Virus record (IMG/VR): IMGVR_UViG_3300025840_000060 | Span: 1-43,530 of that record | Length of the DNA stretch: 43,530 nucleotides | Reading direction: 5' to 3' (one strand) | Origin: a virus | Part shown: positions 6,001 through 35,932 of the stretch, one piece after another | Layout: each line of letters starts with the position of its first letter | How positions within the stretch are numbered: position 1 is the first letter of the stretch | Made by a program: the position numbers and the translations under genes | The notes under the pieces: generated by a model | Database searches by the model: none | The model's input: only the letters and a program-made list of their open reading frames with translations | Told to the model about the DNA's origin: nothing

Positions 6001-9000
6001 AATTCTTGCTTCAATCTGCCTTGGTGCCTCAAAGCCTCTAACTTTGCTGGTTGCTTCTCTAATTATTCTTTCGTTGTTCCATACAACAATGTTATCATTT
6101 ACATTTGCGTTTTGTAATGACAACACAAAATCTAAATATTTTCCAGTATTGATTTCGCCAATTTGGTTGCTGTCAATGTATGATATCAAACTGTAATTTG
6201 TAAACAGTGTTACATTGCCACTTTCACTTCTTTCTAGATAGTTTACTTTTTTACTTGCTGTTTCGCTTAATAAATTATCACCTGCAGGAATTAATTCGTA
6301 TACGTTCCAATCTTCGTTTTCTGATTTAGCAACATGTATGTAATCATTTTGTTTTGGCTTGAATATAAAATCATCTCTGTATAAATCACTAATACTTTCT
6401 ACATCAAATGCCAAGAAGTTAACATTCGCTGAGTTTACATAACCAGCATTACTAATTCTAGGATAGTTACTGTCTGTCATGCCAAATATATCAACGTTGG
6501 CTGTAGTTGGCCAAAGTTTGCTGATTTTATCACCTTCTGGTTTCTTCAAGAATCTTGTAGCATCGTCAATATCAAATACTAGTATGTCTTTTGACGATGA
6601 CGGCACAACATCATATGTTCGCTTGATTCCTACTCTAGGGGCAATACCTTCTTTAGCAGTTACTTTGATTCTCACTTTAGAATTAGGTAGATCACCAACA
6701 AAATTTTCAGTGAAAGTTAGTGTAGGTCTTTCTATAATTTGTATTACAGCATTTTCATCTAACGCATAATAAGTGTCACGTTGTTGTTCGTTTGCATCAT
6801 AATCTCCTGGTGGATTAACTTTTGCTGTTAATACAGAATCAGGTAACAGACTAATATCATTAAAAGTAATACTGTTTGTAGCCAATGTAAACACATTACC
6901 ATTTGAAACTAATGTACCATCTGAAGTGTATGTGCTAGGCGAATTATAAATTCTCACATTGTTTACAAAAACTTCAACGTATTTGTATTGGCTGTTGTCG
7001 CCTTTAACTAAATTAGATGGATCTATGTTTTGAGCACTATTAAATGCTAAAGATACACTGTTATTAACTAATTCAAATGCATTGTTGTCTGCATCAGCAA
7101 TATTACTTGTATTAAGTGATGGATATTCTGCAAGTGTTGTAATTGAAAAATTAGAACCTTCGTCAAATGTCCAGTATATATCTAAAGGATTATTCGGATC
7201 AACTCTAGGTACATTTGCATCATCAACTTCCACAACTATATCATTTGCTGTAGTTGTATAAGTAGGATCTTCGTTTGCTAATGCGCCAACAAGACTAAAT
7301 TTTTGTTGAGGTTGATATCTAGCATTAGTTATTCCAATGTTTGCGCCGTCTACCACAGTAAAATCACTACCTGATAAAGTAATAATATCTTTTGCAACTA
7401 AATCAATTACAGATGCGTTTGCATCAAGGTCTGTATAGTTTGTTATGCTACTTGCTGTGACATTAACGTTCAGACTAGTATTACTGTTAATTGCACTTGC
7501 AATATTTGCACCAGTAACGTTTGAAGTACCGTCTGAATGTGTAACAGTAAGCCTAACAGTGCTTTCAGAAACATGATCTGTGATCTCAAATTCTGTAGAA
7601 GTTGTGTCAGTAATGTATGTATTACCAATTGCTAATGCTTTGTCAAGCACAGTTTCTACTTCATTGATTAATACATTTGAAGCAACTACTCTTGCGGCTA
7701 ATGCAGTTGGGTCATCATAACCTGAACCAGACTCCGTTACAATAATACTGTCTAATTTGTTATTGCTGTTTAACTTAGCAACTGCTGTTGCACGTTTTCC
7801 TTTAGGATTACTAGGCATTGATATTTCAATCTCTGGTAATCTTTCGTAATTGTATCTTGCTTCGAACACATCTATGCGTTCAATACAATTAGTTGTACTT
7901 TGTGGATAATCTAATTTTATTAATTGACTATTCTGTTTGAAGTCTGTTTTGTATAATTTAAGTTCAATGTTTTGCTTGTTTTTTGTATTACCAAAATCGC
8001 CTACACGTAATGCCCATTCGTCGTATACAGTAATGTTGCCTTGGACAATACTGTTACTGTTAGCCAAACGTGTTAAACTTTCCTTAGTACCTTTATTCTG
8101 AATCATGCCTTGATAGAATTCAAACTGTTGTTCATCAAGCACATCAAGTTCTGTTAGATAACTTTTTTCTTGGTAGCCAAACAATGCTCTACTTTGTTCG
8201 TATAGTTGTTTTTCAACAGGCACAAATCCTAATTCATGATAGCGACCTAAACTTTCCGCCATATTATCTAAGTTTGGTCTAAGTTCGTCACCATCAATTA
8301 TAAAGCCTTCTGAAAAGAATTTACCTGTCCAGTTCTTTGTTCTGTTTGCTTTGATCTTGATTCTCTTATGTCTTTGATCATATAAATTATCAAAGATTAC
8401 ATCAGCAAACACAGTTTGATTATCAAACACTAGTGCATGTTCAATTTCTTTTGTGAACAACATGCAACCATAAATTTGTTGTCCTAGCGGAGGAATAATT
8501 TCTATTTGAGACCCTTCTCTATTAATTTGGCATTTACCAGGATCAACAACTGCGCCTGTTTGATCTATGATAGAAAATTGATCTCTGTCAGTCCTATTAA
8601 TCTTAGCAATAAAACCTCGAGGAGCAGTAAACAACAAACGTTTTGCAAGTGGTGATAATTCAATGGTATTACCTATTTCCCATTTACCTGTTGTCCAAAA
8701 CAAAAATTGTTTGCCAGCATACATCCAGTCATTGACATCATTGATAGCACCGTCAAATTCTCCAAAGTCAAAACCTTCCTGATTATTATAAGCACCTAGG
8801 CCTATTAATAAGTCAAAAACTTCTTGTATAGTTTCAAATTCTGTATCATAGTATACTCTAACTGGTACTGATTTTCTAACTTGATACAATGCCGCTTCTG
8901 CACCATTTTTCTGTGGTAATTTACTTAATGTATTCCAATACTGTGGATCAAAATTTGTACCAGATGTAACATTTAGTTTTGCTCTAAAGTAACTTCTATT

Positions 9001-12000
9001 ATACTCAACTATTGTGCCTTTAGGATAACTTTGTTCTGGTGCCCATTTAACATGTGGTGCTGGTTCGCCACCAACAGAAATTAACGATTTAGGACTCTTA
9101 GGATCAACTGGTAATACATTAAAGTATCCTCTGTTTTTATCGTACCCTCTTACAATATACCCACCAGCACTTTTTTCAATAATAATGCCGCTATAAAAAT
9201 TCCTTGATTTATAATTACTACTATGTAGGTTGACATTTATATTCTCTTGTGGTATAATTAAACTTGTAGCATTACCGTCATTACTATATTGGTCTGTTCT
9301 AGCAACCATGGTGTCTTTATCAATGAAGCCACTCATTCTCTGTGCTAAATTGGTATTCAGGGTTCTCATTTTAGTTGCAAAGTCATCTACAATGCTGAGA
9401 TTTTGAAACTTTAACCATGTGTATATAAATTGTGTATAACCAATTGCTGTTATGAAATTTTTATTTTGATCTAGTTCGCCATGTATATGGAATTCCGTTG
9501 GATCATAAAACTTCCAAAACTCTCCAGTATTTTTATTGAGAATATATTCTTTGTTACAACTAGGCCTTGTTAAAGAAATTGGATTACTAAAGAAAGTAGC
9601 AAACAATCCTGGTTTGGATAATAGCAGTGCCTCCGACATTGCAAAAGGAAATTCTTCTGTGTTCCTCCACGCATACTCTGCTGGACTGCAATCACCAAAT
9701 GACCATTTACCAGAAATACCGGTTGTGCTAACCACTGAAGTATTTAATGTGCTTCTTATATAATAATCAGCATCTTGATTTATATACCCATTATTTTTGT
9801 TATTGTCTGTTTCATCTATAACTACTTCTAATATAGCTCTGTAGCCATCACCTTGTATAGTTGCTAATGCTTCAGTGTAACCTGAGCCGGAATTTGTGAT
9901 TGTAATTGCTTGTATAGCACCATCAACAATAGTTGCAGTAGCAGTAGCACCACTTCCGTTGCCAGTAATTGCAACTGTTGCGTTAGTGTACTGCCCACCT
10001 TTGTTTTTGATTTTTATTTCTTTTATTAAACCTGTATCAGGAGCATTTGAATAAAAACAATTTTGATAAACATTATTACCTGAAGTTCCTTGCCCTGAAC
10101 TTCCGCCTACATGGAAAGGGAAAACAGGTTTGTTGTTTTCATCTACTGTGGCAACATAAAATCTAATAGGTGTATTCGGTGATTCTGGTGTACGTGCATA
10201 TCTAACATTATATTCATCAACATACTCGTCACCACTGCCGGCAGTTGGTTCCCAGTCTTCTATAAATTGACCAGTGTAAGCACCACCTGGACCAGATTGT
10301 CTTGTACCTGATCTCACTGCCCATTTAGATTTAATTCTCACAATACTGTTTGAGTCTATACCTTGAGCACCACCGTATCCATATGGACCATAAATAGGCA
10401 GACCATCTAATGCCCAACCTACTATTGGGGAGTGTTCAGTTGTACTCCACTCAGTTAATCCTGCTACACGTGGACTAAAGACATGATAGTGTAAAATGCC
10501 GTCCTCAACACTTGCATGACCTGAATCCGGATCATGATTTTTTGTAACAGTTGAGTAATGCCATTCACCTTCGCCTTTCCAACTTTCTTCTGATTTAATA
10601 TTGTATACCGGTATACCATTTACTGCCACAGCAACAGGACCCTTGCCTTGCTTTTGTGAATTGCCTGTAGGAGGTATATTTGCTAAATCTCTTTTTGGAA
10701 TAGTGTAACTTACAGCATCAAATTCAATTGACTCGCCATCTAGTGTGGCGTGTCCAGAATGTTCGTAGTGTAACCCGTCTAGTGTATGATTAGGTATAGT
10801 ATGACTTTGTACATACAAATTACCGCTATCTAGTGAAACTGATACACCGTCGTTTCTAGCAAATGATGTTACTTGAATATCTGTAAGGGCATTTACAAAT
10901 TCGTTATTCCATTGCTTTGTTAGTGTTGTGGTATCTGTAGAAATAATATCAGCAGGTGCAATCAAGTCGCCGTTGCTGTCAACTGGAATTACTTCATGCA
11001 GTCCAATTCTTCTAAAGGGGTTGTTCTTCTTGAACGCATCATTGTGAATATTTGCTCTAGGGCCTTTTCTTATTATGCCTTGCTCTAAATCATTCCATAA
11101 TTTTTCATTGGTAGGAGAATAATCTATAATAGGACTTACTTTGTTTGTATCGCCCGAAGCATACAAAGCATATTCGCTGTCCCACCATATAGGCTTTTCT
11201 GTAAAGCCTAACATTTCCCATGGATGAGTATTTGGTTTAATGGTATCGTAGTAATACAAATAGAAGCCTTTCCAATGCCCTGGTATTAAACCTGTATTTG
11301 CATAGTTCCATGTAAATTTATTATTTTCATCATAGAATTCATTGACTGTACCATCGAGATTATTTCTCTGCAACCAACTAGAGTATGAACTTATCATCAA
11401 GTCATTGAACTCTTTATACTCTAATGATGTTTTTCTAAATTCGCCATTTTGTGAACTAAACACACTATGTTCTGGCATGCTGTTATTAGTTCTAAACTCT
11501 GCTTTAGCACTGTTAAATATTCTCTTTTCAAATTCTAATAACAAGTCATCACGTAAGTCTCCCTTGATAGGTGTCTCACTTCCGTCATGGCCTATAATAA
11601 CCTTTAAGGGTTGAGAGAAACTCTTGTCTATTGTAATTTCAGGTTTGAACAGTGGATATAATCCCATTGTGCTTGGAGTAGGAGGACATTGAGCACTATC
11701 TCTTTCTGCATCGTATAACTTAAATAAAACAGTATCACCAGAACTCAAATTAACACTGTCTTGTATTGTAATGGTTAAAGGTTCAAACGAACTTATTACA
11801 TAATCGTGATCAACAGTTAATAATTTTTGATTTAGAAATACCAATAAACTGTGTTCAAGTTTGTCTAGGTCTGCATCATATACACTTGTAAATGTCTTAT
11901 CTGCAGGCGTACTTGGAATGCCAACTAAAAATTCTTCTTCTTTGTAATTGTCACCATATGGCAAAATATATGTTCTATTAAATACATCTCTGCCTACTTT

Positions 12001-14259
12001 GTAACTTTGTGTATTTCGAATAACTTGTTCTAAAATATCACTGACAGCAATACCATCTGTATCTTTGGTATCATAGTATTTGTTAATTTCATTTTTGATT
12101 CTGTTTTTGAATTTCACATACTCAGCTCTATTAAATTTCAAAGCATCTATTAAGTTGTGTGGTTGATCATCAAGTAAAAATGAACCTAGTATAACATTTT
12201 GATCAGTGTTTACAATTTTGTTTGCAAATGTATCACTTTTAACAATACTATCAGAATTATTTGAACCAAATTTTAATCCAGAGAAACCTTCTTGGTTGCT
12301 CATGTAATCACTAAAGTGTTCCATATATTGTGGCTGACTTATACCAACAATATCTTGTTTTAGTACATTGTTTTTCCAACCAATTGGTAATTCGTATTTA
12401 GAAATATTTTGATCGTCAATTAATCCTACTTCTGAATTTACACTGATTTCTAAAATATCATTTGCTGAATATGGAATAGAATCTAGTCGTATAAAACCTT
12501 TGTTGGTGCTAAAGTATTGAAAGCCTGTGATTTCATCACCGTTAAGTGTAACTGTAATTTCGTAGCCGCTACTAAATTTAGGATTGCTTTTTGGTTCAGC
12601 ACCAATATAAAAATCTTTTATTTGTCTATCAACAACTGCTTGTGGTAAAGAATATGTAGAAACAATTTTTTGTACATTAGGTTCTGAAACATGTTTCCAA
12701 TGTGCATGATATTCTACAACTTTTTTGTTTAACTTGTAAAATTTGTAACCACTGATGTTTTTGCTTGAGTTGCCACCAAACGGAATAAAATTATAGTTAC
12801 CTGTTTTTTGAAAATTTTCAAACAGTATTTCTGAACTAGATTTGAATTGCTTGTATACTAACGGAAACCCAAGCTCTATATCAGAAACCAAACTTACACT
12901 TGTGTTACTTTCCCCGGTAGGAATGCTAGTTGCATAACCAAAGATTTTGTTTCCTGTAAAGTTGTTCTGAGGATATAAATCACTATCACCTAAATATTGT
13001 CCTTTGTTATCATAGAGATTAAATAAAGGCTCTTGATTAATTTTTGATTTGTGCTGTGCTTGTACCCAACCTACACTAGTCCAGACATATTCGGAACCAA
13101 GATATTTTGAACCTGAATCTACGCAAACAACATCACCAACTACTGGCGTCATTGGTATAAAATTATCATCGCCGTCAACTGCGCCTGCTGGATTATTTAA
13201 TGCTGGAACTCTAGATAGTGTAACAAATGCTTGTGCGTTTGAGCCTTGATAGATGTATTGTGAAACTTCCTTATCTTCATTAGGAAAGATCATATATGCA
13301 TTTGATACATCTACTGAATCAACTAATTGTCCTGTTTTAAGTCCCTTTACGTCAGCAATTGAGAAATCAGCCACAGAAACATTTACAGTGTAAAGTAATT
13401 TCTCTCCATGCTTGTATAATTCTAATTCTTTATCAAACTCTATAATAGGTCTATTTGCACGTTTGGTTTTTTCTGGTATTGAATCGCCAGCATCTCTGAA
13501 ATTTTCTATGTGGTACCAATGATTAACTCTACTCCAAGCGTTTTTATTAGTAGCACCACGCTCCTGAATTAAGTAATCTTTTTCCCAATCTACTGATGTA
13601 TCAAGTCTATAAGATACAGGATTGTTTGATGTTATTTCAGTTAATTTTATTGCATCGCCAACACCAGATACAATAAATGTTTTGCTAGTTTCTGTTGCTG
13701 GAATGACATAGTTGCCTGAGAACTCTACCTTCATTCCGTTTCTCATAGACTTACCATTAGGCAATGTATAAGTTTTTTTACCAAGTATGTCTAAGTCTAT
13801 ATCTATATAATTAGATGCTGTACCAGTTATTGTGATTACCGATGGTCCTTCTGGTACCCAATAATATTCTTGGTAATTAATAAATTTGTCAACATTTATA
13901 GGAGGTAAAAATGTACTATATCTATCTGAAAATAATTTATTATGGTTTTTTGTCTGTACACCATAACTTTTTAATAAGTCTATAAACTCATCATAAAAAA
14001 TTAAATTTTCTGGCTTGTTAGTATCTGATGTTTTTGTACTAACTGTAGGCGATAAACTATAGAAACGTTTTGACGCAGTAGGGTGTATAATATATGCACC
14101 TTCTACATCATGGTCTTCGCCACGTTGGCTACCAATAAACCCTTTGACTAATTCAACATTAGCCTTGCTGAATAATTGCTCAACAGTGTTATCAAAGAAA
14201 TTTTTGATAGCATTAGTTTGATGTATAACTGGTAACTTTTTATAAATCTTATCAGCCAT
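1..14259 (-). CDS. Giant virion structural protein (partial, C-terminus beyond left edge)
   Basis: I read the whole frame line by line and found no stop from the ATG at 14259 to base 1, so at least 4753 codons are present and the C-terminus is missing. The start overlaps the gp6 stop as TAATG, so the two are translationally coupled. The gene sits where T4 has gp7, but the length is over four times that of T4 gp7 (about 1030 residues). Visible parts: an N-terminal region rich in aromatic residues (YYWVPEGPS, NHWYH), a YHYH-type domain around residues 1165-1300 (LHYHVFSP, HSPIVGW, ALDGLPIYGPYGYGG), and scattered GSGY beta-type repeats near residues 1410-1475, 2175-2195 and 2830-3070. No signal peptide or membrane segment was noticed. 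From memory, T4-like marine phages carry giant structural proteins next to gp6. A role in the baseplate periphery or fibre attachment is inferred. Confidence 0.85.
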   Translation of the reverse strand, partial: MADKIYKKLPVIHQTNAIKNFFDNTVEQLFSKANVELVKGFIGSQRGEDHDVEGAYIIHPTASKRFYSLSPTVSTKTSDTNKPENLIFYDEFIDLLKSYGVQTKNHNKLFSDRYSTFLPPINVDKFINYQEYYWVPEGPSVITITGTASNYIDIDLDILGKKTYTLPNGKSMRNGMKVEFSGNYVIPATETSKTFIVSGVGDAIKLTEITSNNPVSYRLDTSVDWEKDYLIQERGATNKNAWSRVNHWYHIENFRDAGDSIPEKTKRANRPIIEFDKELELYKHGEKLLYTVNVSVADFSIADVKGLKTGQLVDSVDVSNAYMIFPNEDKEVSQYIYQGSNAQAFVTLSRVPALNNPAGAVDGDDNFIPMTPVVGDVVCVDSGSKYLGSEYVWTSVGWVQAQHKSKINQEPLFNLYDNKGQYLGDSDLYPQNNFTGNKIFGYATSIPTGESNTSVSLVSDIELGFPLVYKQFKSSSEILFENFQKTGNYNFIPFGGNSSKNISGYKFYKLNKKVVEYHAHWKHVSEPNVQKIVSTYSLPQAVVDRQIKDFYIGAEPKSNPKFSSGYEITVTLNGDEITGFQYFSTNKGFIRLDSIPYSANDILEISVNSEVGLIDDQNISKYELPIGWKNNVLKQDIVGISQPQYMEHFSDYMSNQEGFSGLKFGSNNSDSIVKSDTFANKIVNTDQNVILGSFLLDDQPHNLIDALKFNRAEYVKFKNRIKNEINKYYDTKDTDGIAVSDILEQVIRNTQSYKVGRDVFNRTYILPYGDNYKEEEFLVGIPSTPADKTFTSVYDADLDKLEHSLLVFLNQKLLTVDHDYVISSFEPLTITIQDSVNLSSGDTVLFKLYDAERDSAQCPPTPSTMGLYPLFKPEITIDKSFSQPLKVIIGHDGSETPIKGDLRDDLLLEFEKRIFNSAKAEFRTNNSMPEHSVFSSQNGEFRKTSLEYKEFNDLMISSYSSWLQRNNLDGTVNEFYDENNKFTWNYANTGLIPGHWKGFYLYYYDTIKPNTHPWEMLGFTEKPIWWDSEYALYASGDTNKVSPIIDYSPTNEKLWNDLEQGIIRKGPRANIHNDAFKKNNPFRRIGLHEVIPVDSNGDLIAPADIISTDTTTLTKQWNNEFVNALTDIQVTSFARNDGVSVSLDSGNLYVQSHTIPNHTLDGLHYEHSGHATLDGESIEFDAVSYTIPKRDLANIPPTGNSQKQGKGPVAVAVNGIPVYNIKSEESWKGEGEWHYSTVTKNHDPDSGHASVEDGILHYHVFSPRVAGLTEWSTTEHSPIVGWALDGLPIYGPYGYGGAQGIDSNSIVRIKSKWAVRSGTRQSGPGGAYTGQFIEDWEPTAGSGDEYVDEYNVRYARTPESPNTPIRFYVATVDENNKPVFPFHVGGSSGQGTSGNNVYQNCFYSNAPDTGLIKEIKIKNKGGQYTNATVAITGNGSGATATATIVDGAIQAITITNSGSGYTEALATIQGDGYRAILEVVIDETDNNKNNGYINQDADYYIRSTLNTSVVSTTGISGKWSFGDCSPAEYAWRNTEEFPFAMSEALLLSKPGLFATFFSNPISLTRPSCNKEYILNKNTGEFWKFYDPTEFHIHGELDQNKNFITAIGYTQFIYTWLKFQNLSIVDDFATKMRTLNTNLAQRMSGFIDKDTMVARTDQYSNDGNATSLIIPQENINVNLHSSNYKSRNFYSGIIIEKSAGGYIVRGYDKNRGYFNVLPVDPKSPKSLISVGGEPAPHVKWAPEQSYPKGTIVEYNRSYFRAKLNVTSGTNFDPQYWNTLSKLPQKNGAEAALYQVRKSVPVRVYYDTEFETIQEVFDLLIGLGAYNNQEGFDFGEFDGAINDVNDWMYAGKQFLFWTTGKWEIGNTIELSPLAKRLLFTAPRGFIAKINRTDRDQFSIIDQTGAVVDPGKCQINREGSQIEIIPPLGQQIYGCMLFTKEIEHALVFDNQTVFADVIFDNLYDQRHKRIKIKANRTKNWTGKFFSEGFIIDGDELRPNLDNMAESLGRYHELGFVPVEKQLYEQSRALFGYQEKSYLTELDVLDEQQFEFYQGMIQNKGTKESLTRLANSNSIVQGNITVYDEWALRVGDFGNTKNKQNIELKLYKTDFKQNSQLIKLDYPQSTTNCIERIDVFEARYNYERLPEIEISMPSNPKGKRATAVAKLNSNNKLDSIIVTESGSGYDDPTALAARVVASNVLINEVETVLDKALAIGNTYITDTTSTEFEITDHVSESTVRLTVTHSDGTSNVTGANIASAINSNTSLNVNVTASSITNYTDLDANASVIDLVAKDIITLSGSDFTVVDGANIGITNARYQPQQKFSLVGALANEDPTYTTTANDIVVEVDDANVPRVDPNNPLDIYWTFDEGSNFSITTLAEYPSLNTSNIADADNNAFELVNNSVSLAFNSAQNIDPSNLVKGDNSQYKYVEVFVNNVRIYNSPSTYTSDGTLVSNGNVFTLATNSITFNDISLLPDSVLTAKVNPPGDYDANEQQRDTYYALDENAVIQIIERPTLTFTENFVGDLPNSKVRIKVTAKEGIAPRVGIKRTYDVVPSSSKDILVFDIDDATRFLKKPEGDKISKLWPTTANVDIFGMTDSNYPRISNAGYVNSANVNFLAFDVESISDLYRDDFIFKPKQNDYIHVAKSENEDWNVYELIPAGDNLLSETASKKVNYLERSESGNVTLFTNYSLISYIDSNQIGEINTGKYLDFVLSLQNANVNDNIVVWNNERIIREATSKVRGFEAPRQIEARIQSIGPLNSYDIISTEPVVSQVLSGLRASIVSSSDGNTVQLTGSIGTISNGDAVQIIDNIGTKVQRDAVVATVTSGNVSLNPTSIANLTITSAGSGYSEPPTVTVTPDLGATITANIEGNVSTVNIITDNNFQRANVSLGGGGGTGATVRTDIFDAEIVGFTITDPGQDYLYTGPDSNGDYNATNPVTVTITTPSSGTTATAEVRDMDVDPVTGQILNINILERGSGYESNNLPTVTITGTGGQNATAVPILQGNVRAVVTNIGSGYTQAPAVTIHGDGTGFSGEAVINAKVTALNVVNGGVGFTSTPTISISGSATATPNMNFGNAEIDQNILDDSSGSFANTSITVTGSINVDTQFGLPSDANTATIAKIQSLFTKTHKLIGYSQNPTNALLHINEPLLEDANVVSNINNLAFVIKSYKDYSSDTGRYHIVSNVTQRSFTITRPNSVAGNALSVRHLNNTKLVTRNPDLPLSDNDIVRVFANNFEGMFRVKSSENGNITIPSPFTFGYQSGTITTEGIKIKTVSDHGISPLYAEYGKRIAVHFASPKAYNQIYSINKVTPKELYINNRWAKSTTTQIYYDHKIGTINGSVPYESGNINADFANSTNSIGLTRSTDLTETVVKYSSNAEIVNPRFVSIVEDGSVCVIHPDALPSDTQISIDVDVQRDMGRNILYPQLSTVDQGVVTLKGSQQHLTSYLNPQALENDLNRTIKLKQSFTDPTSMTTVNPKTGLPSMQLKIPMLKSPWIPVVGDTPAPLIHDYGPYVLSTEALNSIQENSVTGSMVIGSEDESRIDPNFYKGPIQSGPVYGLRYVKDDINYIWDNEIQMYVPEETIVKDGVIVNDKQEPRIPPMPEFHVGTYMQTNNLDYINEDLVLKQIPGSANSSRSWRPGRKQQTYNMLDKKTFTAGSDSISIPTYRLRAIKNENVFLIYQAVQNSDNHVYYIKLDESNPPNIDHDFNATLNRYADFGQYDTTDYYWRNEILPSIDSDNKITEPKDPIRLRKTKNIVNLKAVEPAAYVGPQLIPEPFALAGGNNSDRIANFTALPSGTQAKLSTYIDYPIGEPGGILPGGAEGEEIYVPQTGFGQFLLWTPGLAPGQWAPTSGGPGSVDNETLGYGSGYYQAGDDHDALDYPDVSDLTYDKPISRFKYSRRFTVNPPVFNVDRRLYEINGVRYTEEDLTGLQPDSRSREGDSNQAFWDGIFEDINGVDREIDYNFFFDEEWWDYLEIDEVVSDGVANENDNDEDNTLLRPEHIFVACFWTEPFTYVDQITGYNYDQLDADGNPAPIYSDYDGTVVRVKYIRLTELPPNAITRRLIPDTGWAGKGWNNVTVDYAINQSGAILTPDDVDSYIDQFDPVETGSASTGDDDTLVVDLPALTRSATPIPVAGSTQNYSLSNTRLLSSGELEQQLGFQSVPTVEGGAPVNTLAKITQAPGPCLAIETPDDPTPPGTTAPGVCTEKETQYFFEEMNDGLEGKSNPTGSVNTTDAGRSFTTQLMLNTLTNCQAFFDSNQYGFGGDMQFFFSKTVEIATSGSIDVFLNSHVENDTIKAKPWGNATGYVLWQSKQPLFGSSKVMTNHLDLGAWLADPDTRLLKTTMNNANDIPTRNGDQISRYGVDQNLTSGANRYTQVDAIFDTNDKGLHTYDNVENISNNETRLYNDLTFTRLISELNDDDISVKWSDWDSDLATEMTGKGFNENNEFGFNGIGYIRALNVDCNKGKYITLWMVPSLSDTAGNTLRDVNGSYANDYSHAYNYFEAADDTADGPSIIRNQAVIRFVGEKPDDYVPPGPSCDDTNRPSRAYRNGAVLKGWKALRDDNNSAQDAKHGEDWWGSKREVDNVYWPYHDLYISPSYFKSFSNSNIWKPWRTRTAGSAPIVNRTVKSFHKYNSGQGQHSYELKGYMFAPHTGVYYFSGWGDDQLIVYLSSGPPEPDLDIWNAYPNYISGGFKNYARIGVPDDGSGPSPSGGDAAPGTFKEWFTDDGFNADNGYNYISTANVAHN
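5041..5760 (-). repeat. Cluster of GSGY beta-type protein repeats in the giant protein
   Basis: The minus-strand translation shows successive units built as G-S-G-Y, a few residues, P-x-V-T-I-x-G, then a short Ala/Thr-rich return: GSGYTQAPAVTIHG, GVGFTSTPTISISG, GSGYESNNLPTVTITG, GSGYSEPPTVTVTP. Isolated copies lie near 7700 (GSGYDDP), 9880 (GSGYTEALATIQG) and 9990 (GGQYTNATVAITG). The pattern suggests a beta-strand solenoid or tandem beta domains, as in fibre and adhesin shafts. The repeats are diverged at DNA level and seen mainly in protein. Confidence 0.7.
10300..10770 (-). other. YHYH-type domain inside the giant virion protein
   Basis: On the minus strand this stretch encodes residues about 1165-1320 of the giant protein. 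It contains LHYHVFSP, then EHSPIVGWALDGLPIYGPYG, which fits the conserved core of the YHYH domain family (YHYH followed by HSP-(I/L)-(I/V)-G-x-A-x-DG-x-PIYGPYG). The family is known from secreted and cell-surface proteins of marine bacteria and its function is poorly defined. The first motif residue is Leu rather than Tyr. The domain is followed by two GSGY or GGQY repeats. Confidence 0.7.
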
Positions 14260-19539: not shown

Positions 19540-19713
19540 ATGTCAAATCATGAAGACTCTAATGCAGAAATCTATCGTCGACAAATTTTAGCACTTGAGG
19601 ATACTATAAAGTTATTGAAAAGAAATCTATTGGAAGAAAGCAAATTGAAATATGATGCCTACAAACGCATCGGAGAATTGACTTCTACTAGATCTTCGTT
19701 GAATCAAAACTAA
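19540..19713 (+). CDS. Small helical protein of unknown function, 57 residues
   Basis: This is an ATG-to-TAA frame beginning MSNHEDSNAEIYRRQILALE and continuing with DTIKLLKRNLLEESKLKYDAYKRIGEL. Heptad-like spacing of Ile/Leu suggests a single coiled-coil helix. Its 3' end overlaps the 3' end of convergent gp5 by 26 bases. No good Shine-Dalgarno is seen; TATAAAAG at 19518-19525 loosely resembles a late -10 box. The sequence reads like real protein (mixed charge, no odd composition), but it is short and unrecognised. It could be a structural helper or a spurious frame. Confidence 0.5.
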   Translation: MSNHEDSNAEIYRRQILALEDTIKLLKRNLLEESKLKYDAYKRIGELTSTRSSLNQN

Positions 19714-22507
19714 AGTTTCTAAAGGCCGCTTTAATTTCGTTTATGGTTTGAGGAGCACCAAACGCCGCATTTGGATCTCCTTGGAACTTCATTTTGTGAA
19801 AATCTTGTCTCTTGTAATATAAATCTTCAGCAAGTTCGCCAAGTGGTGCGCCACCACGTGGATAATCTCTGGTAAGCCCAATACCCTGTTCATCTGATGT
19901 TTGGAATACTTCTGCTTCGTATGCTCTCATTTGCACTAACGTTTCTTGTTTTTCCATATCGCCACCTGGGGTGCTTGGTGCCATAGTCCAACCTTTCATG
20001 AGATAAGGAACAATTTCAAATTTTTCTTCATTAATTGCTCTCAGTACATTGCTGTTCAAAAATCTTTCTGGGCCAATGTGATGTGCAAAACTTGTTACTG
20101 CTAAACGTTGATTATTGCTCAGTGGAGTTTTTACAGCATGTTTAACACTTTCAAAAGATTTATTCATATCGCCAATAAAACCAACTGTTTCGCCTATAGG
20201 ACCTAAGCCATTTGAGAAATCAACAATTTGAAAACCGTTAGCATCTTCAAATATAAATCCTCCAGCATCTTGTATCATTGAAATACCTTGTGCTTCTAAT
20301 GCATTAGCAAATCCTTTTACGTCTGTGATAACACCATTGATGTCTGCAAATTGAGATTTAATGTTGTTAATCTCTCCCATTAATTCTTGTACTTGCCCTT
20401 CAAGTAAATCAACAGGTATGCCGGCTTCAAGTGCAAATGCTCTTAGCCTTGCTTCAATCTCAGTTAAATTTTTAGCCATACCAATCACTTTTTCTAGTTC
20501 AGGATTTGAAACTGCAAATCTAACTGGTGGCAACATTGCTTTGAATGCCGCGGTCATTTCATCCAATCCTGTGATCTGTAAAAGTTGATCTTTGGCCATT
20601 TCCTTGAATTCGTTATATACAGCGGCAAGTCCAGCAAAGGTTGGGATACTGTTTAATAAAGCATTGCCTGCTCCTGCAATTTGACTTGCGGCACTAACTG
20701 CTTGATCTGCGGCTCCAGTAATACTGTTTTGTAAGTCTGTTACAGTTTTTCCAGCAGAATCTACTGCACCCATAGCAACTTGTGTACCACTTGGGGTTTG
20801 AACATCACTGCCTTTGCCTGTGGTAGGGTCAACAGTGCCTTCACCTTGTGTAGCATTTTCCACTTTTTCATAAGCGGCCTTGACTGCTTCGTTTTGTGTG
20901 TCTATTGCTAGGTCACTAGGTATAAGTTGATTCTTTTCAGGATCGTAATTGTAATGCATATCAGGCTCTGGGCCTGGCAGTCTTGTTAATGTTGTTAAAA
21001 TCTCATGCACCGTGCCAGTACGTTTACCACCAGTAGTAAGTGGTGCAGTGGAATCTCTATCAAATTCTGGTGCATCTTCTGGTGCTAGTTTCTTTTTGCC
21101 TTTTGCGGTTTCACTGGCTGGTCTTGCATACGGAGGTACAGGTGGAGTAGGTGTACTTGCAAAACTGTTCAAATTCATAACAAGAGCATCAGCATTAAAT
21201 GCCAATCCACCAAACATATTAACAGCACCTGCTATCACATCAAATCCGATACCCGATAACATTGTAACTCTGCCTGCCATACATACAACTTCAAAGTTAC
21301 CTGTACCAGTAGACATAGAATTAGCGCCTGTTGTTACCAAAGTAGAACCACCACTGTTTATATTGACATCACCAGTACTGGCTGTTAAGTATGAGTTTCT
21401 ACTGGAATTAAAATGCATGTCACTGGCAGAGTCTAATTTAATTTCACCACCTGTGCCCAGTGGTCCTGTAATGTCTCCTGCTATGCCTTGTATAACAGCA
21501 CCACCTGGTGCTCGTTGTCCGGCTATGTTGTCACCTAATGCAGTTACATGTACGTTTTGCCCTGCTTCTAAATTTAAGTTGTATTCTGCACGTAAGTTTA
21601 AGTCTCCCATAGATCTGATATTGATACTGTTCTCACCAAATATATCAATTTGTCCATTGTTTTTGAACTCCATTTTTGCGGAGCCTTTTTGATTAATTAT
21701 AAATATCGAACCAGTGGTATCATCGAGCAAAAGTTGTGCGCCGCCACCGGACCTTATTCTGATAATTCTGCTGTCCTTGTGATCATCCATTATGAACTGA
21801 TGACCTGAAGCTCTAACGTTAGATTTTTTGCCGGGCTGTGTTAAATCTCCGCCGCCGCTTTTAAGCAATCGTCCTGGTGTTAGTATACCAAATACTTCAC
21901 TGGGTGCTTCACGTCTTGAACCCGAACTGCCAAATCCCCTAATAGGATCTAGTGCCAGCCCTTGCTTGACCACTGCTTCTGATAAATCAAACTCAATGGG
22001 TCTCGGTCTATCGTTTGATGTGGGCTTGCCTTCTTTGGGACTTATTTCTGTAGTAGGTAATGATACACTGCTGTCGGCATATGATACAGCCGCTGGTTGT
22101 CCTGGAATACTGTTTGAAAATTTTCCTGGAAAAACACATGATAATATTAAACCAAATTTTGAATCACCGTCACCAAATGCCACAACAACATGGTTGCCAA
22201 TATCAGGTGGTTGCATCCAAAATCCATAGGATTGTATAGCACCTTCTGGGTCTTCTATGTCGTCGCTGAGATTTGCATATCGTGTTGTACCTGCAAACGG
22301 AGAGCACCATAAGCATTGCACAATCTGAGAGCTTCTACTTTGAGTTGCTGGAATTCTCACTGCAATCGCATGTTCGAATGCTTCGTCAAGATTGTCTTCG
22401 ATGATTCCCAGTGCAATGTTTTTAGGAACACCAAGACGCTCTCTGAAATCTCTTATATTTACGATTTCATTGATGTCTCTATTTAATGTTCTAGTTGTCT
22501 GCGACAT
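19688..22507 (-). CDS. gp5: Baseplate central spike/hub protein gp5-like with partial lysozyme domain
   Basis: This 939-residue protein has an N-terminal OB-fold typical of gp5/VgrG (about residues 45-130: WCSPFAGTTRYANL, QSYGFWMQPPDIGNHVVVAF, FGLILSCVFPG). A beta-helix-like needle follows at about 235-450 (MDDHKDSRIIRIRSGGG, SINIRSMGDLNLRAEYNLNL), then an Ala/Gly-rich linker. The C-terminus holds a segment like the second lobe of phage lysozymes (about 795-865: PLSNNQRLAVTSFAHHIG, NSNVLRAINEEKF, MRAYEAEVF). The catalytic Glu with the GYGH segment of the first lobe is not visible, and the lysozyme part follows the needle instead of preceding it as in T4. AAGGA lies upstream of the ATG. The gene follows the hub-like 815-residue gene by eight bases. 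gp5 identity is secure. Enzyme activity is doubtful. Confidence 0.88.
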   Translation of the reverse strand: MSQTTRTLNRDINEIVNIRDFRERLGVPKNIALGIIEDNLDEAFEHAIAVRIPATQSRSSQIVQCLWCSPFAGTTRYANLSDDIEDPEGAIQSYGFWMQPPDIGNHVVVAFGDGDSKFGLILSCVFPGKFSNSIPGQPAAVSYADSSVSLPTTEISPKEGKPTSNDRPRPIEFDLSEAVVKQGLALDPIRGFGSSGSRREAPSEVFGILTPGRLLKSGGGDLTQPGKKSNVRASGHQFIMDDHKDSRIIRIRSGGGAQLLLDDTTGSIFIINQKGSAKMEFKNNGQIDIFGENSINIRSMGDLNLRAEYNLNLEAGQNVHVTALGDNIAGQRAPGGAVIQGIAGDITGPLGTGGEIKLDSASDMHFNSSRNSYLTASTGDVNINSGGSTLVTTGANSMSTGTGNFEVVCMAGRVTMLSGIGFDVIAGAVNMFGGLAFNADALVMNLNSFASTPTPPVPPYARPASETAKGKKKLAPEDAPEFDRDSTAPLTTGGKRTGTVHEILTTLTRLPGPEPDMHYNYDPEKNQLIPSDLAIDTQNEAVKAAYEKVENATQGEGTVDPTTGKGSDVQTPSGTQVAMGAVDSAGKTVTDLQNSITGAADQAVSAASQIAGAGNALLNSIPTFAGLAAVYNEFKEMAKDQLLQITGLDEMTAAFKAMLPPVRFAVSNPELEKVIGMAKNLTEIEARLRAFALEAGIPVDLLEGQVQELMGEINNIKSQFADINGVITDVKGFANALEAQGISMIQDAGGFIFEDANGFQIVDFSNGLGPIGETVGFIGDMNKSFESVKHAVKTPLSNNQRLAVTSFAHHIGPERFLNSNVLRAINEEKFEIVPYLMKGWTMAPSTPGGDMEKQETLVQMRAYEAEVFQTSDEQGIGLTRDYPRGGAPLGELAEDLYYKRQDFHKMKFQGDPNAAFGAPQTINEIKAAFRNFSFDSTKI

Positions 22508-30680: not shown

Positions 30681-31106
30681 ATGTCTTATTGGATCTATAA
30701 AGGAAAACAAATTGACGAGCTACCAGAAGGGTGCGAAGCATTTGTATACTTGATCACAAACAAGAAAAATGGCAAAAAATACATAGGCAAAAAACTAGCA
30801 AAATTCAAAACCACTAAACCACCACTTAAAGGCAAAAAAAGAAAACGCAAAGGCACCAAAGAAAGTGATTGGCGAGAATACTGGGGCAGTTCAGATCATC
30901 TCAAAGCAGATGTAGAAAAGTATGGCGAAGAAAATTTTTTTCGTGAAATACTGCATGTTTGTCCAAGTAGAGGTGTAGCCAGTTACTTAGAAGCACAGGA
31001 ACAATTTGAACGCAAGGTATTGCTCACTGATGATTACTATAATGGAATTATCAACGTAAGAGTAGGAGGTTCAAAAATCTTACGTGAAGCACTGAACAAG
31101 GACTAA
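30681..31106 (+). CDS. GIY-YIG family endonuclease
   Basis: This 141-residue protein has the GIY-YIG fold signature in variant form: FVYLITNKKNGKKYIGKK at about 21-38, a very basic loop (PPLKGKKRKRKG), ESDWREYWGSS near 60-70, KYGEENFFREIL near 80-91, and a Glu in SYLEAQEQFERKVL that fits the catalytic Glu. It lacks an obvious extra DNA-binding domain, so it may be a free-standing nuclease of the Seg type or a repair or host-DNA nuclease. It follows the methyltransferase by 11 bases and ends the plus-strand operon. The start at 30681 follows GATAAAT at 30668, which may be chance. Confidence 0.75.
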   Translation: MSYWIYKGKQIDELPEGCEAFVYLITNKKNGKKYIGKKLAKFKTTKPPLKGKKRKRKGTKESDWREYWGSSDHLKADVEKYGEENFFREILHVCPSRGVASYLEAQEQFERKVLLTDDYYNGIINVRVGGSKILREALNKD

Positions 31107-31633: not shown

Positions 31634-31882
31634 TTAAAGTTCTTCTTGAACACCTTTGCCGGATTTGAGTCTATTATAATTATTGATGGTTTTTACAGCA
31701 AGGTTTCTTTCACGTGCGGACATGAGTTGTGCATCTGACCAAGAAATACTACCGCCTGAATACACAGCAATTTCGATGAGGGATTTTTCTAGTAGGTCTG
31801 CTTCTGAGCGTAATCTATTAAGTAACTTAACGATTTCCTCAGATGTTTGTGTTGCTAAGAAGCGGTGAAAAAATTTACAGGA
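31634..31882 (-). CDS. Second (-1 frame) reading frame after gp26, gp51 position; probably a frameshift extension
   Basis: The open frame is 82 codons long (31882-31634), bounded upstream by TGA at 31885-31883 and ending TAA. It has protein-like sequence: TSEEIVKLLNRLRSEADLLE, KSLIEIAVYSGGSISWSDAQ, LMSARERNLAVKTINNYNRL. No ATG, GTG or TTG occurs before the middle of the frame (GTG at about codon 40, ATG at about 51), so the first half cannot be reached by normal initiation. It overlaps the 3' end of gp26 in the -1 frame across a slippery run. Translated by frameshift, it would add 77 residues to gp26, giving about 355. T4 has gene 51 directly after 26. This positional match is suggestive, but I see no sequence proof of gp51 identity. 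Confidence 0.65.
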   Translation of the reverse strand, partial: SCKFFHRFLATQTSEEIVKLLNRLRSEADLLEKSLIEIAVYSGGSISWSDAQLMSARERNLAVKTINNYNRLKSGKGVQEEL

Positions 31883-32700
31883 TCAAAATTTATCTCCTGT
31901 TCAAATTGTTCATTACACTTTTCACATTCTAGTAAAACTTTCTTTTCAACACCAATCTTGTTTACTTCAGCAATGTTTTCTTCAATGGCTCTGCCAATTT
32001 TTGCATCGCAGTTTTCCATAAACTCTCTGATTGATTTTTTATCAGTTACCACAAAATCGTCGCCTTCAGCATCTTTGCCTTTGATACTGGCAACACTGTC
32101 AACCATTAAGTCAAAGTTGAGAGCGGCAATCTGTATAAAGTTTGTGTTGAATGCTTTGAGCTGTTCCATTTCGTCATTGATAGACTGAATGTTTTGTAAA
32201 CTTCTTGTGGTTTGAAAATTTGCAATACCTGCCTTCACAGAACTTTCGTAAGTGAACGGTCTCACTTCAATTGACAAACCGTTGTCAGTTTCAAAACTGT
32301 AAGTTTCTTCTAGAGTTGTCATGCTTTCAAGTGCAGATTCGATACTGCCTACAGAAGTAACTTCTTCTTTGCACTTGGGGCATTGTCCAGTAACATCAAT
32401 ATCGTCACCGTTTGTGGCTCCTTGCATTGCAATTAATAATGCATCAACATCATTACTTAATAGTTCTCTAGGTTTTTTAACAGCAGGCACACAACTTTGG
32501 ATAACTTGTGCTACTGCTTCACCATTTAACAATGCATCAGGATTCTTCATGATCATTTCGTCTTTTGACGTCATGGGGAAAATAGGTAATTCTCCGTTCT
32601 CTGGCATGTCAATGACTTGATCAGAATAAAATTTACCCTTAGATGGTAATTGTGTGTATAACCTAGGTGCTCGGTAAAAGCCCTGTAATGGATTTGCCAT
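31855..32700 (-). CDS. gp26: Baseplate hub/tail assembly protein gp26-like with zinc-ribbon cysteines
   Basis: I choose ATG at 32700 (MANPLQGFYRAPRLYTQLPS) because GGAG lies eight bases upstream. A longer frame to 32760 would start in the promoter region. The product is 281 residues. FYSDQVIDMPENGELPIFPM and DEMIMKNPDALLNGEAV fit the T4 baseplate protein family of gp26. Two Cys pairs, CPKC (107-110) and CEKC (259-262), could form one zinc site. The frame ends within a slippery run that leads into a -1 frame, recalling tail assembly chaperone pairs such as lambda G/GT, which also sit next to the tape measure gene. Here the neighbour is the divergent tape measure gene. The role as a chaperone or hub-assembly catalyst is inferred. 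Confidence 0.78.
   Translation of the reverse strand: MANPLQGFYRAPRLYTQLPSKGKFYSDQVIDMPENGELPIFPMTSKDEMIMKNPDALLNGEAVAQVIQSCVPAVKKPRELLSNDVDALLIAMQGATNGDDIDVTGQCPKCKEEVTSVGSIESALESMTTLEETYSFETDNGLSIEVRPFTYESSVKAGIANFQTTRSLQNIQSINDEMEQLKAFNTNFIQIAALNFDLMVDSVASIKGKDAEGDDFVVTDKKSIREFMENCDAKIGRAIEENIAEVNKIGVEKKVLLECEKCNEQFEQEINFDPVNFFTAS
31867..31876 (-). promoter_or_regulatory. Candidate -1 ribosomal frameshift site in gp26
   Basis: The gp26 codons GTA AAT TTT TTC end four codons before the stop. They contain two heptamers in the right phase: A AAT TTT (31876-31870) and T TTT TTC (31873-31867), the latter a X XXY YYZ site. A slip of -1 on TTT TTC continues as His-Arg-Phe-Leu into the overlapping frame. 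No strong downstream stem is obvious; GCT/AGC is only 3 bp. Confidence 0.6.
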
Positions 32701-32803: not shown

Positions 32804-35800
32804 ATGGCAGGCAAAACCACAGTTAATATACCAGGAGAAGACGGCAGAGATCGCGAGGTTACCTTACCTGCATACGCCATGGACTCTACTCTGAGAGATT
32901 TGGTGAAAGCCATGTCTGCTCTGTCTGGTATCAGTGAAGAAACTAAAAAAGCCATGGAAAATCTTGGCAAAGACACCAACGATAATTTCAAGAATCAAAA
33001 CGCAACAGACAAAAAACGAAACGAAATAGCCAACAATCAATTAAACAGTTTGAAGAATCTTAATAAAACTGTTGAAGAAAATGCTGAAGACGCCAAAAAA
33101 CAAACTGGTGTTTTAAGAGAAGCATTCGAAGATGCTGGCGGAGTACTGAAATCTTTATTCCTTGGCGCAATCAGTTTAACAAGCACTGCATTGTACAACT
33201 TGGTGACTACTGGTTATAACACTGGACAAGTTTTAGTTGATCTAAACAGACAAGGTATACTGTTTAACAAAACCCTAGATGGCATGACTGCCAGTGAGGC
33301 GTTTGGTAGTTTGACTGCACTAGGCATGCAGGCATCTGATGCAGGACAAATTCTTGGGGATTATTCCAGAGTGGTTGCCACACTTGGTGTTAGTGCAATC
33401 ACTGATCAATCTAGAGCAATAGCAAACAGTACCAAAATGGGTGCAGAATTTGGTATGACCATGAGTGAGCTCACTGGTTATATTTCAGATGAATTAGACA
33501 TCAGACAAACTTTGGGTATGATTGATCAATTACAGAGATCAAGAGTATCAAAAAGTTCAGAAGAATTATTCAGAAAACAAATACAGTTTTCACAGGTACT
33601 AGGTACTTCCATGGATGACCTTCAAAAATCTGCCGCTGGCATACTTGATAACCCAATGGCTAGATCTGCTTTTGCATTGATTGACGAATTAGGCACATCC
33701 TCAGAAGACCTTGCAAATCAATTAAGAATCAGTACATCACAAATGGCAGGTATGGGATTTGATCAAAAATTAATAGATCAAATTGGCAACGAAATGTTTG
33801 ATATCACTGCATTTTTCAGCGATGCAGGTATGAATTTACAGGCCGCGTTTGCTTCAACTGGTACAGCCGCAGGTAAAGAAGTAGTAGGCATGATATCTGA
33901 AATAAACAGTGCTATTGCAAATAATGATATTAAAACAGCCACAAAAAAAATTGGAGACCTTCCTGGATTCATGGAAGATGCAATCAATGATATGGGTCCA
34001 GAAGGCATTGCAAGTTTCAGAAGGGTAGCAACAGAAATTGGCGGCGAGATGGGTGCGTCATTATTGATGAGCATGAACTCAGTGAGATTGTATCAGAAAA
34101 ATTTAGAAGCACTAACTGAAGCTCACAAAAAGCAAGGCGATACAACCAAACTTACAACTGATGAGTTTCAAAGTATGTTTAATAATTTAGCACAAGCCTC
34201 TAAATCATTTGAACAGTCTAAGAAATCTATCACCGGTGCGTTAGATACTATCAGAATGGCATCCACTGGTATATTACAACAAAGTGGTATTGCTGATGCA
34301 GTAACAAATGTCTTAACCAGATTTTCGTCGATGCTTGTTGACAGAAGTAAGGAAATTAATGATGCAATAACAAGATTAGCAAAAAGATTTGGTTTTCTTG
34401 ATGGCAATGCAGACGATTTGTCTACAACCATAGGCGAAGGTTTAATAGACACAATGGGAAATTTTATTGATCATGCTTTAGACTTTATAGAAAGCATTAA
34501 CCCAGAAATGTTAAGTGGCCTGTTTGATACTGTTACAAGCACATTTACCTCCGCAATAGATGCTGTAAACTTAGTGATTGCTGGATTAAGTGCATTTGGT
34601 AATTTCCTAACTAGTTCTATGTTCAGCGACGATGCAAGTTTTTGGTTAAAAGGTGCAGAACTATTTGCCAAAGTATTCGGAACTGCATTTCTTGCTTCTG
34701 CCGCTGTTAGATTAGTCGGTAAAGGTGTTTCAGCAGTTACTGGAGGATTACTTGGTGGCAAGGACAAAGCGGCACCAAGCAGTGTGGCCGCAGGTGTTGG
34801 CCAAGGCTTAGGCAAGGCAGGTGCTGGTATCAAGATGTTTGGTAAAGGACTAGCAAGTTTCCCAGCCGCGGCCATTCTTGGCGCAGGCAAGTTAGCCGCC
34901 GCAATAGCAATTATTGCTGGCGCAGTGGGACTATCAGGATATATCATAGGCCTAGGCTTAGGGTCAATGGCAGAAGCATTCAAAAAATTCAATGAAGTAG
35001 ATGGCATGAACTTGTTGAAAGTTGGTGGCGGATTGATTGCTCTCAGTGCCGGCATGTTGGCTTTTGGTGCTGGTGCAGTTGTGGGTGCCATTGGTAACAT
35101 TGTGGGCGGCATATTAGACGGTCTTAATGAAATGTTTGGTGGCGAGTCTATGTTTGACAAACTGAAAACGTTTGGCGAAATGGAATTAAACTATAACGGC
35201 ATTAGAAACAATGCAGAAGCAGTAGCGGCATATGGTGTAGCAATGGGCAAACTAGGCGGTGGCCAGTTAGCCGCAGGGTTTGGTAATTTAGTTGGCACAC
35301 TAATGGATGGCCTCAATGAATTTTTTGGTGGCAAGACACCATTTGAAAAAATGGAAGAGTTTGGCAACATGAATTTTGACACAGAACGCATTGCTAGAAA
35401 TGCAGGTGCGTTTGGTATTTTTGCTGAAGCACTCAGTAAAGCCAGTAAAGCAGATTTCACTGCACTAGATGACATTGGCGACATCATGGACGATGTCAAT
35501 GATGAATTAGAACATTTTTCAAACACCAAGAAAATTGATCCTGTGGGTCTAGCAAGTAATGCCAATTCATTGAAAGTGTATGCTGGAGCATTAAAAGAAT
35601 TAAGCAGAGTAAACCCAGACAAAATTACCAGTTTAGGTGAAGCCATTGGAGTGTTACATCAAGCACTAAGCAATTACACTGGACCTGGCTACTTTGAATC
35701 TTTAGCTCAAATGAGTGGACAAACACTTGATGTGGTTTCTACCATGATGTTTGGCAACGGCGAAAATGCACAACCAAGCACAGAAGCAGTTTCAACTGCA

Positions 35801-35932
35801 GATAGTGGTTCCGAATCATCTAAAGAAGCTCAAGCCAGAGCAACACTGTTTAATGCCATGATAGATCCAGCACAATTAAACCGATTAGAAAAAGTTCTTA
35901 TAAGAATTGAAGAGAAAACACTAGGCGCATAA
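32804..35932 (+). CDS. Probable tail tape measure protein (gp29-like role)
   Basis: This 1042-residue protein fits tape measure proteins by size, helical Ala/Gly-rich composition and context. It starts with a charged coiled-coil region (about 35-105: ETKKAMENLGKD, QLNSLKNLNKTVEENAED) and continues with long helical stretches (EELFRKQIQFSQVLG, LEALTEAHKKQ). It has strongly hydrophobic helices at about 685-720 (AAAIAIIAGAVGLSGYIIGL) and 744-772 (GGGLIALSAGMLAFGAGAVV). Two later segments repeat a pattern (GNIVGGILDGLNEMFGG and GNLVGTLMDGLNEFFGG). Tape measure proteins fix tail length and pass through the tube at DNA ejection. In T4 this job is done by gp29 (590 residues). Only a weak GGA lies before the ATG. 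Confidence 0.7.
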   Translation: MAGKTTVNIPGEDGRDREVTLPAYAMDSTLRDLVKAMSALSGISEETKKAMENLGKDTNDNFKNQNATDKKRNEIANNQLNSLKNLNKTVEENAEDAKKQTGVLREAFEDAGGVLKSLFLGAISLTSTALYNLVTTGYNTGQVLVDLNRQGILFNKTLDGMTASEAFGSLTALGMQASDAGQILGDYSRVVATLGVSAITDQSRAIANSTKMGAEFGMTMSELTGYISDELDIRQTLGMIDQLQRSRVSKSSEELFRKQIQFSQVLGTSMDDLQKSAAGILDNPMARSAFALIDELGTSSEDLANQLRISTSQMAGMGFDQKLIDQIGNEMFDITAFFSDAGMNLQAAFASTGTAAGKEVVGMISEINSAIANNDIKTATKKIGDLPGFMEDAINDMGPEGIASFRRVATEIGGEMGASLLMSMNSVRLYQKNLEALTEAHKKQGDTTKLTTDEFQSMFNNLAQASKSFEQSKKSITGALDTIRMASTGILQQSGIADAVTNVLTRFSSMLVDRSKEINDAITRLAKRFGFLDGNADDLSTTIGEGLIDTMGNFIDHALDFIESINPEMLSGLFDTVTSTFTSAIDAVNLVIAGLSAFGNFLTSSMFSDDASFWLKGAELFAKVFGTAFLASAAVRLVGKGVSAVTGGLLGGKDKAAPSSVAAGVGQGLGKAGAGIKMFGKGLASFPAAAILGAGKLAAAIAIIAGAVGLSGYIIGLGLGSMAEAFKKFNEVDGMNLLKVGGGLIALSAGMLAFGAGAVVGAIGNIVGGILDGLNEMFGGESMFDKLKTFGEMELNYNGIRNNAEAVAAYGVAMGKLGGGQLAAGFGNLVGTLMDGLNEFFGGKTPFEKMEEFGNMNFDTERIARNAGAFGIFAEALSKASKADFTALDDIGDIMDDVNDELEHFSNTKKIDPVGLASNANSLKVYAGALKELSRVNPDKITSLGEAIGVLHQALSNYTGPGYFESLAQMSGQTLDVVSTMMFGNGENAQPSTEAVSTADSGSESSKEAQARATLFNAMIDPAQLNRLEKVLIRIEEKTLGA

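Follow-up and report, generated by a model that had tools for sequence, protein, structure and literature searches.

Does a T4-like phage make its gp26 protein in two forms from a single gene? This question is raised by a minus-strand locus in the IMG/VR virus record IMGVR_UViG_3300025840_000060 (43,530 bases, analyzed at full length and hereafter called the window), where a gene for a protein of the T4 gp26 family stops shortly after a slippery run and overlaps, in the −1 frame, with a second protein-like open frame. We conclude that gp26 and this −1 extension very probably form a tail assembly chaperone pair made by programmed −1 frameshifting, like G and GT of phage lambda. The slippage itself, its efficiency, the chaperone function and the binding partners are what we infer from the evidence presented here.

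Window gp26 was assigned to its family by PF12322 (T4_baseplate, E = 7.5e-16; 58.9 bits, above the curated cut-off of 24.5) and by phrog_150 (baseplate hub, E = 1.6e-19). It ends in the codons GTA AAT TTT TTC ACC GCT TCT TAG (GTA 31878-31876, AAT 31875-31873, TTT 31872-31870, TTC 31869-31867), in which A_AAT_TTT and T_TTT_TTC are overlapping canonical heptamers, both in phase. The −1 frame is closed upstream by TGA (31885-31883), opens three codons 5' of the slippery run and then remains open for 82 codons up to TAA (31636-31634). It contains no ATG, GTG or TTG before codon 36 after the slip site; the first GTG is codon 36 and the first ATG is codon 50 (read in L001, whose gp26 is identical). 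Counted from TTT TTT at the slip site, the −1 frame contributes 79 codons, and the fusion has 276 + 79 = 355 residues; its junction, VNFFH, is the same whichever of the two heptamers slips. An earlier note, made from the letters of the window, had described the end codons, both heptamers, the opening of the −1 frame and the lack of a usable start in its first half, all of them exactly. It had also proposed products of 281 and about 355 residues; these lengths were recomputed, and their origin by −1 frameshifting passed most sequence tests.

In the mechanism that we propose, most ribosomes would terminate at TAG and release the 281-residue short form, and some would slip back one base on A_AAU_UUU_UUC, just 5' of the stop, to produce a fusion of about 355 residues with an extra helical domain. 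The ratio of short to long form would be set by the slip efficiency. By analogy with lambda G and GT, the short form would coat or hold the tape measure or hub complex, and the extra domain of the long form would recruit the tail tube or a hub protein and thus link it to the chaperone-tape measure complex. For lambda GT, the extra domain has been proposed to link the chaperone-tape measure complex to the tube protein (PMC5009743).

Conservation of the slip run and of the −1 frame

The slip run and the open −1 frame were found in 65 of 65 distinct IMG/VR sequences of the clade of the window, a sample that started from relatives with 52-100% gp26 identity and that favors loci with the motif, because one of the two patterns of the wider scan contained FDPVNF[FS]. 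Six earlier patterns, which avoided the slip site, recovered the same group, and the patterns used for cyanophages were also free of the site. All 63 distinct cyanophage-type loci keep the run and the open frame as well (128 of 128 IMG/VR loci in the two sets), effectively always as T_TTT_TTC; two of them were read as T_TTC_TCA because the last FS pair was taken, but have T_TTT_TTC one codon before this, as seen in TTTTTTCTCA. Since run and open frame are conserved in 65/65 and 63/63 loci, a chance origin of this layout is excluded. The earlier note had considered that the frame break might be a sequencing error in an otherwise continuous gene. We give this explanation, and that of a decayed gene, next to no probability, because over 100 independent sequences and isolates share the break at the identical codon, and the sequence on either side of it is under purifying selection.

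Synonymous constraint, which the earlier note had suggested as a check, was evident at the site: GTA AAT TTT and the following codon are 100% synonymously fixed across 31 distinct relatives, compared to a gene average of 52%. Because the GTA codon precedes the shift, there is no evident coding reason for the fixation of its A. Two variants of the site occur in the clade, namely AAATTTTTTC with T_TTT_TTC in 52 of the 65 sequences and AAATTTTTCC with five T in the other 13. In these latter (TCC) variants A_AAT_TTT is the sole canonical heptamer, and the −1 frame is still open. These observations bear on the alternative that RNA polymerase slips on the T run, such that a share of the transcripts, with one extra or two fewer T, encodes the fusion. 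The coding strand of the window indeed carries a run of six T. However, six T is short for polymerase slippage, the five-T sequences have the same open −1 frame, and the invariance of the A in GTA and of the T in AAT accords with codon-anticodon re-pairing and not with run length. Transcriptional slippage is therefore an extremely unlikely source of the fusion.

Purifying selection also acts on the −1 frame, with a median dN/dS of ~0.29 over 84 pairs and with 13697, 9768 and 20527 differences at codon positions 1, 2 and 3, mostly third. Most sequences of the clade have no ATG before about codon 46, and the conserved domain sequence begins well upstream. The −1 open reading frame (ORF) of the clade thus combines protein-level selection with the lack of a usable start of its own, as expected of a G/GT-type second frame.

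The closest annotated isolates are jumbo phages, with gp26 proteins 25-37% identical to that of the window. In 17 of 17 such isolates (PA5oct, Phosso, RaK2, Atu_ph07, 121Q, XaC1, XbC2, CBB, BF, Kaldavass, GAP32, Munch, Vibrio 2.275, SCTP-2, Hallingskeid, XacN1 and CM1), gp26 has a terminal FF whose codons form T_TTT_TTC or T_TTT_TTT, and a conserved open −1 frame follows. The same arrangement, T_TTT_TTY with the −1 frame open, was found in S-PM2, P-SSM2, HTVC008M, phiM12, Cr30, phiW-14 and KVP40 (7/7), so that T_TTT_TTC or T_TTT_TTT is present in 24 of 24 isolates of the jumbo and cyanophage/T4-superfamily groups. Codon statistics were calculated on 34 representatives; relatedness was ignored, and their independence is overstated accordingly, although the site itself occurs across several phage families. 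The codon before FF encodes seven different amino acids (N, S, H, R, D, A, Y) but always ends in T (log10 P ~−9.5 under codon usage), and the first F codon is always TTT (log10 P ~−7.3).

Start codons near the junction vary between isolates. The −1 domain of PA5oct contains none at all. A start codon overlaps the gp26 stop as ATGA in Phosso and Atu_ph07 and as TAATG in 121Q, XbC2, BF and Kaldavass; these six phages keep the slippery run despite the overlapping ATG. An ATG at or just past the gp26 stop, again with the heptamer kept, is also present in KVP40, phiM12, Cr30 and many cyanophages. Such overlaps, and the annotation of the −1 domain as a separate coding sequence in several records, fit the view that a small gene of its own encodes the domain and is translated by reinitiation or by coupling at the stop of gp26, like the short 'gp51' of cyanophages and KVP40. 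We consider this very unlikely, because the window offers no suitable start, its clade and PA5oct lack one as described above, and reinitiation would not need the heptamer that is kept even beside an ATG. Phages with an ATG on the gp26 stop may produce the −1 domain in two ways, fused to gp26 and by itself. An ATG-started gene for the second frame, which the earlier note had named as an observation that would speak against frameshifting, is thus partly realized in some relatives, from Phosso to the cyanophages, which have such an ATG and keep the heptamer, and not in the clade of the window.

A joined gene for gp26 and the −1 domain is annotated in none of the 17 jumbo-phage records (that of CM1 being without annotation), and in the PA5oct and RaK2 records the downstream frame is without any annotation. 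The present comparison corrects the annotation of the long form in this respect. The family phrog_18291, whose function is not known, matches three jumbo-phage rows of the −1-domain alignment (L049, L051 from 121Q and similar; best E = 1.9e-36). Judged by these matches, its role is likely that of the long-form extension of gp26.

We also examined the RNA downstream of the slip site. For a stem of GCTTCT with AGAAGC, which was named by hand, pairing is kept in 86% of the clade I cells, and two pairs show compensatory changes, although related sequences can mimic covariation; the single-sequence z is −2.4. In the 100 downstream bases of clade I, RNAalifold gave no strong common structure, only 3 weak pairs, and did not choose this stem unaided; in clade II it gave a non-covarying 9-pair stem. 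The evidence for a stimulatory stem is suggestive only. By eye, no conserved Shine-Dalgarno-like element was seen upstream of the slip site.

gp26 and gp51 in T4-like phages

T4 gp26 and gp51 are full-length PF12322 paralogues (E = 9e-64 and 4e-52), and gp51 alone has an extra C-terminal domain (phrog_634 matches its residues 147-246). The window gp26 profile matches that of T4 gp26, gp51 and cyanophages with E = 3e-15. The −1 domains of cyanophages, KVP40, phiM12, Cr30 and phiW-14 match phrog_634 ('baseplate hub assembly catalyst'), and in the S-PM2 and KVP40 records the domain is annotated as a separate short gp51. The −1 domain profile aligns with the set of gp51 C-termini and cyanophage gp51 (hhalign E = 1.6e-5, probability 79%) over 36 columns only, and a direct hmmscan of the window's −1 domain gave no phrog_634 match. 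At the level of these profiles, the −1 domain and the C-terminus of T4 gp51 are similar. The earlier note had pointed to gene 51, which directly follows gene 26 in T4. This pointer was well placed, but what the −1 domain resembles is the C-terminal portion of T4 gp51 only, gp51 itself being a gp26 paralogue with the domain in frame.

No slippery run is present in the gp26 genes of T4 (TTC TTT), KARL-1 (TTT GTT), Aeromonas 31 and RB43, which all have a separate full-length gp51. The heptamer is thus present where the domain lies out of frame and absent where a second gene supplies it, which provides a natural negative control. A scan of viral contigs with T4 gp26 recovered 6 loci only. Among the T4-like phages sampled, the frameshift arrangement appears to recur almost throughout; the exception is the close relatives of T4, which have two genes. 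Cyanophage gp51 was previously described as ~20% of full length, with the first ~200 residues missing (Sullivan et al. 2010, PMC3037559). Frameshifting would explain the lack of these N-terminal residues, and the short 'gp51' of cyanophages may for the most part represent the end of a gp26-gp51 fusion protein.

The production of tail assembly chaperones by frameshifting is a classic system, which has been described as widely conserved among long-tailed phages 'except T4' (Atkins et al. 2016, PMC5009743). According to papers that cite their work, Vladimirov, Gautam and Davidson (Virology 2022, 566:9-15) identified the chaperone genes of T4-like phages and reported poly-T slippery sites in them (PMC10885494, PMC12846349); some of these phages carry, in place of a frameshift, one short gene and one long fused gene (PMC10885494). 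As far as these citing papers report that study, the statement of the earlier note that a gp26 frameshift is undescribed in T4-like phages does not fully hold. This kind of frameshift is already known, and the clade of the window and its jumbo relatives represent a new case. The presence of the site in every jumbo lineage examined, the tandem heptamer with its TCC variant, and the split between slip-site and two-gene phages may also be new.

With respect to evolution, we lean slightly towards a scenario in which −1 frameshifting in gp26 was the ancestral route to two forms across the T4 superfamily, including the jumbo phages. In the relatives of T4, a duplication of gp26 would have given rise to gp51, to which the extension is joined in frame, and the slippery run would have disappeared; the clade of the window would have evolved the tandem A_AAU_UUU/U_UUU_UUC, in which the effective heptamer can move by one codon at an unchanged junction. 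In our comparison, gp51 emerges as the long form of a two-form chaperone, the other members of which are apparently made by frameshifting, and this role becomes testable in T4 genetics.

Predicted structure, neighborhood and function

Structure models were built from the window-clade alignment rows only. AlphaFold2 predicted the −1 domain as a helical hairpin with fair confidence (pLDDT 82.5) and gave a fair model of gp26 (pLDDT 79.3). Foldseek found nothing for gp26 in the PDB and no significant match for the −1 domain; PDB sequence searches with profiles gave nothing credible. In a viral structure library, the matches of gp26 were T4-like baseplate hub proteins.

Several points weigh against a chaperone pair. 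The fold match is weak: gp26 matches the HK97 tail assembly chaperone 2ob9 with Z 5.7 over 93/104 residues, and YqbN (3klu) with Z 5.7 over 81/119 residues, but unrelated helical folds score equally. The model is therefore compatible with a chaperone fold, which is not proof of it. The neighboring gene, the candidate for the tape measure, is transcribed divergently and could not be assigned to a family with confidence. The two gp26 products are deduced here from sequence alone, and in the many relatives with an ATG at or near the gp26 stop a separately started −1 product is possible. It could also be that the frameshift is real but that its products are parts of the baseplate hub and not a chaperone pair for the tape measure. 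This fits the common annotation of gp26 as baseplate hub, the annotation of the CBB homologue as a structural protein, and some genetic studies that place T4 gp26 in the hub (PMC3004832). However, T4 particles do not contain gp51, gp26 and gp51 of T4 are counted among the chaperones of hub assembly (PMC3004832), and the two-form design matches tail assembly chaperones. We thus regard hub parts as an unlikely reading, if one to be kept in mind, and retain that of a chaperone pair.

Between gp26 and the portal gene, the window has a 1042-residue ORF that gave no confident Pfam or PHROG match. In the RaK2 record, the annotation of the gene at this position notes similarity to a tail tape measure protein, and the ORF of the window may encode a tape measure or another structural protein. 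The features of the locus are listed in the Table.

Table. Features of the gp26 locus in the window, with the basis of each assignment.
Feature	Position	Strand	Basis
gp26, TAC-N-like short product, 281 residues, PF12322/phrog_150	31855..32700	−	ORF from ATG; profile matches
Slippery heptamer A_AAT_TTT, in all relatives of the window's clade	31870..31876	−	Sequence; synonymous invariance; sole canonical heptamer in TCC variants
Slippery heptamer T_TTT_TTC, common to jumbo phages and cyanophages	31867..31873	−	Sequence and conservation
0-frame stop TAG, 3 codons past the slip site	31855..31857	−	Same spacing in 64/65 distinct relatives
−1 frame C-terminal domain, 79 codons + TAA, predicted helical hairpin	31634..31873	−	dN/dS, profile match, AlphaFold2
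Possible stimulatory stem directly 3' of the slip site, GCTTCT 31863-31858 with AGAAGC 31805-31800	31800..31863	−	Suggestive only
Divergent neighbor, 1042-residue ORF	32804..35932	+	ORF; RaK2 synteny

Other genes of the window were recognized as well. Downstream of gp26 lies a gene for a SegE-like GIY-YIG endonuclease (30681-31106, plus strand; PF19835, E = 5.9e-35), and several jumbo phages have an endonuclease VII near the corresponding place. A 939-residue hub protein (19688-22507, minus strand) combines a gp5-like OB domain with a phage lysozyme domain near its C-terminus. Beside the baseplate wedge genes, an open-ended ORF of 4753 codons (1-14259, minus strand) runs off the contig end; only a YHYH domain was recognized in it (PF14240, E = 1.3e-26).

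Comparison with known two-form systems

The proposed pair resembles lambda G/GT and the other pairs of long-tailed phages in that the second ORF lacks a start of its own and that the short form would be the more abundant by design. It differs from lambda G/GT in that gp26 is larger, belongs to another family (PF12322) and has zinc-ribbon-like cysteine pairs, in that the slip site is poly-T and not the lambda heptamer, and in that the gene is divergent from the tape measure candidate instead of lying directly upstream of it. T4 gp26 and gp51 belong to the same family as window gp26, and the C-terminal domain of gp51 begins at the same FF-like junction; T4, however, obtains its two forms from two genes, and its gp26 has neither a slippery heptamer nor a −1 extension. 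The short 'gp51' of cyanophages and KVP40 (phrog_634) likewise lies in the −1 frame after a gp26 that ends in T_TTT_TTC, but often has its own ATG, 3 codons past the slip site, and a separate gene annotation, and nearly all of these phages have T_TTT_TTY alone, without the A_AAT_TTT tandem of the window's clade. The jumbo phages (PA5oct, RaK2, 121Q, GAP32, CBB, Munch and others) share a T_TTT_TTY site and the −1 domain with the window, and differ from it in that their 0-frame stop lies 1-11 codons downstream and that several have an ATG near this stop.
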